Below are positions 17,406-19,723 of a stretch of 64,000 nucleotides of DNA, one piece after another. A program made the translations under genes and the position numbers. Every line of letters starts with the position of its first letter. Within the stretch, counting starts at the first letter, position 1. The notes under the pieces are model-generated. The model was not told the DNA's origin. It searched no databases and saw only the letters and a list, made by a program, of their open reading frames with translations. Source of the DNA: Mycobacterium sp. MS1601 (lineage in GTDB: Bacteria; Actinomycetota; Actinomycetes; Mycobacteriales; Mycobacteriaceae); contig NZ_CP019420.1 of the NCBI RefSeq assembly GCF_001984215.1, forward strand, positions 1,116,001 to 1,180,000, given 5' to 3'.

Positions 17406-18275
17406 ATGGCCACCGTCTCCCAATGGATCGAAGGCGCCCGCCCGCGGACTCTTCCCAACGCGGTGGCGCCCGTCATCGCCGGCACCGGAGCAGCGGCCTG
17501 GCTGGGTGCGGCCGTGTGGTGGAAGGCGGCGCTGGCGCTACTGGTGTCGCTGGCCCTGATCGTCGGGGTGAACTACGCCAACGACTACTCCGACGGCATC
17601 CGCGGCACCGACGACGTGCGCGCGGGCCCGCTGCGGCTGGTGGGCTCCAAGGTGGCCTCACCGAGAGCTGTGCTGAGCGCAGCGGTGATCAGCCTGCTTC
17701 TGGCGTCGCTGGCCGGACTGGCGCTGGCCGTCGTGACCAATCCGTGGCTGATCGCCGTCGGCGTGGTCTGCATCACCGGCGCGTGGTTCTACACCGGAGG
17801 CTCAAAGCCTTACGGCTACTTGGGTTTCGGCGAGATCGCGGTATTCGTGTTCTTCGGTCTGGTGGCGGTGCTGGGAACGCAGTACACGCAGGCGCTGGCC
17901 GTCGACTGGGTGGGCGCCGTGGCTGCGGTGGCCATGGGCTGCCTGTCCTCGGCGGTGTTGGTGGCCAACAATCTGCGCGACATCCCCACCGACACGGAGT
18001 CCGGCAAGATCACCCTGGCAGTGCGTCTCGGTGACGCCCGCACCCGCAGGCTGTACGTCGGGCTGCTGGTGACTGCGGGGTTGGCCACCGTCGCGCTGGC
18101 ATTCGCGACCCCATGGACTCTGGCCGGGTTCGTCGCCGCGCCCCTGGCGGTGCGGGCGTCGCGTCCGGTGACGACGGGCAAGGGCGGCCCCGCATTGATC
18201 CCGGTACTGCGAGATACCGGGCTGACCATGTTGGTGTGGTCGATCGCCGTAGGCATCGCACTCTTCCTGGGTTAG
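17406..18275 (+). CDS. menA: 1,4-dihydroxy-2-naphthoate octaprenyltransferase
   Basis: 289 residues, UbiA-family membrane prenyltransferase. [24 protein letters not shown] carries the first aspartate-rich NDxxD motif, and [26 protein letters not shown] the second (D-x3-D), which together bind prenyl diphosphate via Mg2+. About eight to nine helices. It attaches a polyprenyl tail to DHNA in menaquinone synthesis, the sole respiratory quinone of mycobacteria. The start ATG 17406 gives [20 protein letters not shown], the standard N terminus. Position near MTAP and galE3 matches the M. tuberculosis neighbourhood (Rv0534c). Confidence 0.92.
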
Positions 18276-18329
18276 CTCCGCTGCAGGGCGGTCAGCTCAT
18301 GCGGTGCCCGGCTGAGGTGTCCGGTGCGA

Positions 18330-18884
18330 TCAAGCGGCTTCGTCGAGCAAGGCCGCCACAGCGACACGCAAGTGCGCGGCGTCGACGAAGTCGGTGACCA
18401 GCTCGACGGTCGCCGTGTCGTCGCCGCGCAGGATCGCCAGCAGCACATGCTCGACCCGGATCTCTCTGCTCTTGTGCGCCAAGGCTTCCCGCAAGGCGAG
18501 CTCGAGCACCTTCTTCGCCGGTCTGGTGAACGGGAGGTGACCGCGGCGGCGCTGGCGCCGGCCCGAACTGCGCACCGCATCGTCGAAGGCATCCGGACCG
18601 AAACCCCGCTCCACCGCGTCCCGCACGGCATCCAAGTCGATGCCGATGGCGCGCAGCGCGGCAGCGTCCTCGTCGACGTCGTCGCCTGCGGAACTCAGGC
18701 GCACCCGCAGCGCGTCGGCGGTGAGGCCGGCTTCCGAGAGCACCGCCGCCAGATCACGACCCGCACTCTGCACCACCCCGACAAGCAGGTGCTCAGGTCT
18801 GATCTCACCGATGTCGGCGTCACGGGCCTCTTGTTGCGCCAGGACCACGGCCGCCCTGGCCTCCTTCGTGAACTTCTCGAACAT
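18330..18884 (-). CDS. Clp N-terminal (repeat) domain protein lacking an ATPase module
   Basis: 184 residues made only of a Clp_N double repeat: MFEKFTKEARAAVVLAQQEA with HLLVGVVQS forms repeat 1, and FTRPAKKVLELALREALAH with EIRVEHVLLAILRG repeat 2. A basic linker (SSGRRQRRRGH) lies between them. ClpC/ClpA use this domain to bind adaptors and substrates, so a stand-alone copy could be an adaptor, decoy or substrate-recognition factor for ClpC1P1P2; this is inference. Its ATG shares one base with the upstream TGA (TGATG), making translation dependent on the HTH gene. Confidence 0.8.
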   Translation of the reverse strand: MFEKFTKEARAAVVLAQQEARDADIGEIRPEHLLVGVVQSAGRDLAAVLSEAGLTADALRVRLSSAGDDVDEDAAALRAIGIDLDAVRDAVERGFGPDAFDDAVRSSGRRQRRRGHLPFTRPAKKVLELALREALAHKSREIRVEHVLLAILRGDDTATVELVTDFVDAAHLRVAVAALLDEAA

Positions 18885-19102
18885 CAGCGCCTCCGGTTGT
18901 ACTTCTGATGGACGGCCTGCCTGCTGACACCCAGGGCGTCGGCGATGGCCTGCCAACTCCAGCCCTGTTCGCGGGCGTTGGCGACATGCAGTGCTTCCAG
19001 CCGCACCTGGAGCCGTTGCAACGCTCCGACCGCGCGCAGCCCGACGGCCGGATCGACACTGCCGAGTTCCTCGGACTGATCGAGCGAAAGCGACTGATTC
19101 AT
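18884..19102 (-). CDS. small helix-turn-helix protein, probable autoregulator of the Clp-N operon
   Basis: 72 residues from ATG 19102 (MNQSLSLDQSEELGSVD). The C-terminal half has a helix-turn-helix: EQGWSWQAIADALGVSRQAV followed by HQKYNRRR. The N-terminal half (LRAVGALQRLQVRLEALHVANA) is likely a dimerising helix. ATG 19138 in the same frame is upstream of the apparent transcription start, so 19102 is preferred. A consensus-like promoter places transcription start at or next to this ATG, so the mRNA is probably leaderless. Two identical operator-like repeats cover the promoter. Confidence 0.78.
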   Translation of the reverse strand: MNQSLSLDQSEELGSVDPAVGLRAVGALQRLQVRLEALHVANAREQGWSWQAIADALGVSRQAVHQKYNRRR

Positions 19103-19105
19103 GCT

Positions 19106-19150
19106 CGTCAATATAACTTGACACTCTCCAGCCGTCAACCAAACTTGACA
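19106..19150 (-). promoter_or_regulatory. two 18-bp operator repeats overlapping the HTH/Clp-N promoter
   Basis: On the plus strand CGTCAATATAACTTGACA (19106-19123) and CGTCAACCAAACTTGACA (19133-19150) are identical except for three central bases. Each is an inverted repeat (GTCAA/TTGAC). They are offset by 27 bases and bracket the promoter. The arrangement fits two dimers of the HTH protein binding cooperatively and repressing its own operon. Confidence 0.65.
19110..19138 (-). promoter_or_regulatory. sigma-70-type promoter for the HTH/Clp-N operon, leaderless
   Basis: Read on the minus strand: -35 TTGACG (19138-19133), exactly 17 bases, then -10 TATATT (19115-19110). Transcription would begin about 19102-19104, at the A of the ATG start codon (19102). 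Both hexamers lie within the two operator repeats, so binding there should exclude polymerase. Confidence 0.65.
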
Positions 19151-19399
19151 TCAGTGATGTGGCGCACGTTGCTGTGGGTAACGCTTCGCGCATCACCTGA
19201 TACGGCCCCACGGAGTCCGCGAACACGGCCGCACCGCACAGTTCCTGCCAGCTGACGACAAATCACTGCCATGGAATTAATCCCCTGACCTGCTGGTTAC
19301 AACCACCAGACCGGAACGAAACCCGATCCGAACCGCGACCCACAGGTCTTACTGCGAGGCACGATTCGCACCAGCACGAAACCAGAGAGAAACACGAAC

Positions 19400-19723
19400 A
19401 TGAAGAAGCTAGGAGTAGCCACACTCATCGGAACCGCCGCCACCGCCGCTCTGCTTGGCTTGGCCGCACCGGCGATCGCCGCCCCCACCGGAGCAGGCAA
19501 CGCCCAAGACACCATCAGCTCGCTGCAGAGCCAGGGCTACAAGGTGATCGTCAACCGCCTGTCCAACGCCCCGCTCAGCGAAGCCAGCGTCGTCTCCGTC
19601 GGCCAAGGTCCCACTTTCAGCCACACGAATCCGAACGCCGGCAATGAAGGTGGCTACGGCCCGAACTCGGACAACCAGTTCGCGCCGCAGAACACCAAGA
19701 CGGTGTACGTAAACGTCCGCTGA
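19400..19723 (+). CDS. small secreted mycobacterial protein
   Basis: 107 residues. A clear Sec signal peptide (MKKLGVATLIGTAATAALLG, then LAAPAIA-AP cleavage) leaves a mature protein of ~80 residues. The mature part has a short folded segment DTISSLQSQGYKVIVNRLSN, typical of a family of small mycobacterial exported proteins, and a Gly/Asn-rich tail (HTNPNAGNEGGYGPNSDNQ). There are no cysteines. It is monocistronic, with its own intrinsic terminator 15 bases after the stop. Function unknown. Confidence 0.75.
   Translation: MKKLGVATLIGTAATAALLGLAAPAIAAPTGAGNAQDTISSLQSQGYKVIVNRLSNAPLSEASVVSVGQGPTFSHTNPNAGNEGGYGPNSDNQFAPQNTKTVYVNVR

Follow-up and report, generated by a model that had tools for sequence, protein, structure and literature searches.

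A two-gene HTH/Clp_N locus under twin operators in Mycobacterium sp. MS1601, a predicted counterpart of the fused autorepressor ClpC2

The stretch of DNA analyzed here (the window) comprises 64,000 nt of Mycobacterium sp. MS1601 (NZ_CP019420.1; genome G000, 6.83 Mb) and carries, on its minus strand, a pair of genes encoding a 72-aa helix-turn-helix (HTH) protein and a 184-aa stand-alone Clp_N protein (Table 1). Pfam recognized HTH_23 in the former (4.4e-7) and Clp_N, in two stretches, in the latter (4.1e-15). AlphaFold2 placed helices of the HTH protein at residues 18-45, 50-57, and 61-69, the last of which (RQAVHQKYN) is the recognition helix, and the predicted fold of the 184-aa protein was that of the ClpC1 N-domain. 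The original prediction, made from the sequence of the locus, had described a compact, self-limiting module with a leaderless, doubly operated promoter, in which the stop codon of the HTH gene and the start codon of the Clp_N gene share a base; this overlap was read directly from the sequence.

Table 1. Features of the HTH/Clp_N locus (positions in the window).
Feature	Position	Strand	Basis
72-aa HTH protein, predicted autorepressor, leaderless start	18884..19102	-	ORF, Pfam, AlphaFold2
184-aa stand-alone Clp_N protein (ClpC1 N-domain fold), predicted decoy/sensor	18330..18884	-	ORF, Pfam, predicted fold
TGATG, HTH stop TGA and Clp_N start ATG, one base common	18882..18886	-	read directly
GGAGG, Shine-Dalgarno-like, 5 nt 5' of Clp_N ATG	18890..18894	-	read directly
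Operator O1 TGTCAAGTTTGGTTGACG, right half = -35	19133..19150	-	read directly
Operator O2 TGTCAAGTTATATTGACG, overlies -10	19106..19123	-	read directly
-35 hexamer TTGACG	19133..19138	-	promoter search
-10 hexamer TATATT, 7 nt before HTH ATG	19110..19115	-	promoter search
ORF, open reading frame.

A promoter search of positions 18200-19400 returned the proposed TTGACG-17-TATATT as the sole promoter-like site (1 found; mean of 0.1 in shuffled sequences). Since its -10 hexamer lies so close to the HTH start codon, the mRNA of the pair is predicted to begin on or next to that ATG, i.e., to be leaderless. The two 18-bp repeats that had been described over the promoter do cover both hexamers, the right half of O1 forming the -35 and O2 enclosing the -10, and they are alike at 15 of 18 bases and 27 bp apart; as inverted repeats, however, they are perfect only in their five-base arms (GTCAA-n6-TTGAC), the outermost T and G being unpaired. 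The near-identity of O1 and O2 in the window is partly luck, since in relatives the stretch enclosed by the arms varies more from one copy to the other. The pattern TGTCAAGTTNNNTTGAC occurred twice in the genome, both times at the promoter of the pair (reversed-pattern control, 0). In the genome-wide search that the original prediction had suggested, GTCAA-n6-TTGAC was likewise found at only two places in 6.83 Mb, both at this promoter. Considering that the reversed control of the shorter pattern was found at 3 places, a lone site means little, and it is the occurrence of twin sites at a start codon that constitutes the signal.

Conservation of the motif at orthologous pairs had been named beforehand as a test. 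In a genus sample of 148 genomes (E<=1e-20 for Clp_N; E<=2e-20 for a strong HTH match), a pair-type Clp_N was encoded at 29 loci in 28 genomes, and the HTH gene lay directly upstream, with a gap of -1 to +6 nt, at 27 of these, always as a separate ORF; the two loci lacking it are copies in one genome (G106). Strong HTH matches were found in 27 genomes, all within the 28 with Clp_N (Fisher p ~1e-28, relatedness ignored). Perfect operators numbered two at 19 of the 27 loci with HTH, one at 7, and none at 1; the twin operators were 27 bp apart at 16 loci and 28 bp apart at 3, and the arms were separated by six bases at all 45 sites of the genus loci. When twin sites with a first spacing of 6 were sought blindly, 19/148 genomes were retrieved (control, 0; ~0.001 expected by base composition), in every one of which the sites lay at the promoter of the pair, with the HTH start codon 35-36 nt from the first -35 base in 18. 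The association of the HTH/Clp_N pair with twin operators is therefore real and more than chance.

The same arrangement was found across the class. Among 394 genomes representing 137 genera (Clp_N threshold, E<=1e-14), Clp_N matches occurred in 79 genomes and 37 genera, and the HTH gene was directly upstream as a separate ORF in all 79. These 79 loci consist of 6 genus loci already counted plus 24 and 49 further loci, in which the widest gap between the two genes was 18 and 10 nt, respectively. At least one perfect operator was present at 77/79 (5/6, 24/24, and 48/49), two or more were present at 13/24 and 35/49, and the spacing was six bases at all 84 perfect sites of the 49 loci. Where a lone perfect site remained among the genus loci and the 24 class loci, it either adjoined the start codon or lay ~30 nt upstream over the -35. 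In Antribacter gilvus (L019, a named record), the pair, the TGATG overlap, and two operators were all present. On this comparative evidence, the HTH/Clp_N pair is a widely conserved two-gene module in actinobacteria, and the view of it as compact, probably self-repressed, and predicted to be leaderless is upheld by the operators at its orthologues.

Two irregular loci were seen in the genus sample. In G106 (L102, G106:C34), the locus is present as two inverted copies whose Clp_N parts are identical; here the pair-type Clp_N shares a single 535-aa open frame with a restriction-endonuclease domain (Mrr_cat; Pfam, 5.8e-25), which takes the place of the HTH gene. In G118 (G118:C6:42113-42256), a genome without a Clp_N match, there is an HTH remnant (56% over residues 11-59, one internal TGA), which likely reflects decay after loss.

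The regulatory plan of the pair is already known from ClpC2, and it is the two-protein form with its own operator spacing that is unusual. ClpC2 of M. tuberculosis (Rv2667) and M. smegmatis is reported to be a fused autorepressor that is derepressed by bound cyclomarin, which it then soaks up; its operator, CGTCAAC-n5-GTTGACG, is repeated over the -35 and -10, and a leaderless mRNA is predicted for it (Taylor et al., 2023; PMC10030653). Common to ClpC2 and the pair are an HTH-type part and Clp_N, twin GTCAA/TTGAC pseudopalindromes over the -35 and -10, the predicted leaderless start, and conserved cyclomarin residues. However, ClpC2 is one polypeptide, whereas the pair consists of two ORFs in the window and at 73/73 further class loci, and the GTCAA/TTGAC arms are 7 apart in the ClpC2 operator but 6 apart in that of the pair. 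No description of a two-gene form of this plan was found in the parts of the literature that were covered. The window genome also encodes a fused clpC2, whose operators, spaced by 28 bp and placed immediately ahead of its ATG, follow the same promoter plan as the pair. The cyclomarin-contact residues F2, F80, and E89 (ClpC1 numbering) are all present in the window Clp_N and are kept in 53, 53, and 50 of 55 pair proteins, respectively, and the pair HTH matched the ClpC2 N-part at E=0.008 (hhalign probability 97 with ClpC2 residues 36-85). In a Clp_N tree with one ClpC1 row, a midpoint root, and a long-branch warning for one ClpC2 row, 55 pair rows formed one clade (98/93) and 31 ClpC2 rows a separate clade (100/97); this separation indicates that the pair is an old parallel lineage and not a fresh break of clpC2. 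Other Clp_N proteins in the window genome, besides clpC1, clpC2, and the pair protein, include an 852-aa frame (by size ClpB-type), and further Clp_N-domain matches lie at G000:C1:2405065-2405214 (208-aa frame) and 2651418-2651819 (1002-aa frame).

Which domain reads the DNA bears on both systems. Taylor et al. proposed that the DNA contact of ClpC2 lies in Clp_N (R185/R189), with crystal fragments covering residues 4-72 and 94-252 (PMC10030653); the term helix-turn-helix is absent from the main text of that report. Since the structure of the ClpC2 N-part stops at residue 72, where the recognition helix of the HTH profile is still to come, this helix would have fallen in the unseen stretch 73-93. 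The first arginine (R185) is kept in 55/55 pair proteins; the second (R189) is R in 31/31 ClpC2 proteins versus only 7/55 pair proteins (A in 40/55), which favors the HTH as the DNA reader. The HTH is also favored by twin sites with a first spacing of 7, which were found in 113/148 genus genomes (control, 0) and which led to fused clpC2 at 30/30 loci fetched, among the matches listed. With five further loci picked by hand (four odd-looking ones among the matches listed and one in the window's own genome), 54 twin-site loci were read in the genus sample, among the matches listed, and at 53 of them the gene reached belongs to a single HTH family (19 pair, 30 clpC2, 2 HTH-DUF3887, and 2 RelS-RelI-like). 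The last four loci (L016, L099, L098, and L101) have the HTH in common but not Clp_N. Since the HTH is all that the genes beside this recurring operator have in common, it is probably the HTH that reads the operator, in the pair and in ClpC2 too.

The nearest solved relative of the pair HTH is the antitoxin RelI (E=1e-5). RelI, ClpC2, and DUF3887 fusions have already been grouped by their common HTH, and the words operator and palindrom- are absent from the main text of that report (PMC13284704). RelS-RelI shares the HTH family with the pair, and twin operators of the same class lie at the relS 5' end at L098 (G022:C1:1490499-1490544), a relS-relI operon whose toxin partner matches 9sdc (E=4e-17), and at L101 (G104:C1:2752067-2752110), which is relS-relI-like by likeness only and has a short or possibly broken relS frame. 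In RelS-RelI, however, the partner is a ribonuclease toxin, the gene order is reversed, and the first operator spacing is 7, whereas in the pair the partner is Clp_N and the HTH comes first (PMC13284704). The HTH-DUF3887 fusions, in which the sensor DUF3887 is fused and Clp_N is lacking (PMC13284704), likewise resemble the pair in HTH family and twin operators. One of them (Pfam) is in the window's own genome (L016, 1973-2593, minus strand; G000:C1 ~586472-587140), with twin GTCAA/TTGAC operators and an ATG 2 nt behind; another (L099; Pfam) has the same operators and a GTG 2 nt behind. HTH-DUF3887 is a third member of the operator family. At L100 (G054:C1:4218571-4218616), the one remaining locus of the 54, twin operators stand 2 nt before a 382-aa AAT acyltransferase-family ORF (Pfam, 5.5e-31), and the locus contains only a weak HTH-family match. 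The pair HTH may share a DNA half-site with the repressor of a cluster A mycobacteriophage (PDB 7r6r). The two HTH domains are alike (E=0.007), including the R-Q that opens the recognition helix.

We consider it reasonably probable that the pair is an autorepressor-sponge like ClpC2, divided over two genes. Both operators (GTCAA-n6-TTGAC) at the -35 and -10 would be bound by the HTH protein, probably in dimeric form, which would repress its own leaderless operon, the DNA being read by the HTH and not by Clp_N. The co-translated Clp_N, which matches the ClpC1 N-domain in predicted fold and in its cyclomarin-contact residues, would bind the same ligands as that domain, either cyclomarin-type cyclic peptides or misfolded or tagged substrates. 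Ligand on Clp_N would then weaken repression, most simply via a Clp_N-HTH contact that replaces the covalent link of ClpC2, and, as the operon is induced, Clp_N would build up and, as a decoy, hold these ligands away from ClpC1. The label of decoy, offered by the original prediction, finds its backing by analogy in the demonstrated role of the related fused ClpC2 (PMC10030653); for the other role it had offered, that of a ClpC adaptor, no support was obtained. The example of ClpC2, together with the conservation of the cyclomarin-contact residues, also points to ligands of the ClpC1 N-domain as the trigger.

Several observations weigh against this reading. The pair is present in just 28/148 congeners, fewer than two perfect operators are found at 8 of the 27 genus loci that have the HTH, and a distant Clp_N match (34% identity) in an Armatimonadetes metagenome-assembled genome (L020) had neither HTH nor operator. 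The relay from Clp_N to the HTH is the weakest step of the mechanism, and for ecumicin and ilamycin, binding to ClpC2 without its induction is reported (PMC12913811), so induction need not follow from a bound ligand alone. Finally, the R185A/R189A substitutions in Clp_N weaken DNA binding by ClpC2 (PMC10030653), indicating that Clp_N matters there; this effect may be indirect.

Some induction data may already exist under another name. Cyclomarin or ClpC1 degraders are reported also to raise ClpC3 of M. smegmatis, a second small ClpC1-N-domain-like protein, which is reported to bind cyclomarin and ecumicin; no statement on an HTH partner or operators of ClpC3 was found in the available parts of these reports (PMC10864484, PMC10892018, and PMC10746685). 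In one relative (G076), whose pair protein and the M. smegmatis orthologue P0112 are sisters in the Clp_N tree, no small Clp_N protein other than ClpC2 and the pair protein was found. By elimination in this genome, the pair Clp_N protein may be ClpC3, in which case cyclomarin induction of the pair would already have experimental support.

A different function for the same parts has to be weighed. The pair could be a proteostasis regulator rather than an antibiotic sponge, its Clp_N binding misfolded or tagged substrates or ClpC1 adaptors in competition with ClpC1, with client load as the inducer. We regard this as unlikely, although ClpC2 is reported to be induced ~twofold by heat and to slow casein degradation (PMC10030653), and clpC3 (MSMEG_3761) to be induced by cold up to ~11-fold (PMC10454040), which is relevant if clpC3 encodes the pair protein. 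The retained aromatic cyclomarin-contact residues speak for the sponge, yet this surface may serve natural clients and hardly discriminates between the two.

The kinship with RelI, the nearest solved relative, and the twin operators of the same class at RelS-RelI-like operons could point instead to a toxin-antitoxin-like module, in which the HTH would be both repressor and neutralizer, as RelI is the neutralizer of RelS, and free Clp_N would be harmful because it takes up the docking system of ClpC1. However, the partner has the predicted fold of the ClpC1 N-domain and no match to RelS, related HTH and Clp_N parts are fused in ClpC2, the HTH gene leads in the pair but the toxin gene in RelS-RelI, and neither the loss of clpC2 by deletion nor an impairment of its repression is reported to cause a growth defect in rich medium (PMC10030653); we find this account highly improbable. 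The feedback loop of the original prediction, in which the HTH protein is a ClpC1P substrate whose level would shift when ClpC1 is blocked or overloaded and so tune Clp_N, has circuit logic alone to commend it. A repressor stabilized under ClpC1 block would lower the decoy, the opposite of ClpC2, and this loop strikes us as scarcely credible.

On a broader proposal, which extends the two-gene sponge to the whole operator family, we are evenly divided: one small actinobacterial HTH would read twin GTCAA/TTGAC operators at leaderless promoters and be plugged, by fusion or as a neighbor gene, into Clp_N, DUF3887, or RelS. The HTH/Clp_N operon would then be an ancient, non-covalent ClpC2 sponge, with DNA reading and antibiotic sensing on two contacting proteins, and the published assignment of the ClpC2 DNA contact to Clp_N would be wrong or incomplete, since the recognition helix lies in 73-93, which neither crystal structure covers.

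ClpC1 is currently pursued as a target against tuberculosis, and its ligands are blunted by small decoys of the Clp_N type. Were a two-gene system with operators of its own to act as a second such decoy, this protection would prove to be older and broader than ClpC2. The pair also keeps DNA reading and ligand sensing naturally apart, which makes the question of DNA reading in ClpC2 directly testable, and the twin operator provides a genome-scale handle on loci of the HTH family.

Adjoining the pair is a 107-aa ORF (19400-19723, plus strand) with a signal-peptide-like start by eye and no match at E<=1e-8 in the flanks of the other 53 loci searched. The convergent neighbor of the minus-strand pair is a UbiA-family gene (Pfam), presumably menA.
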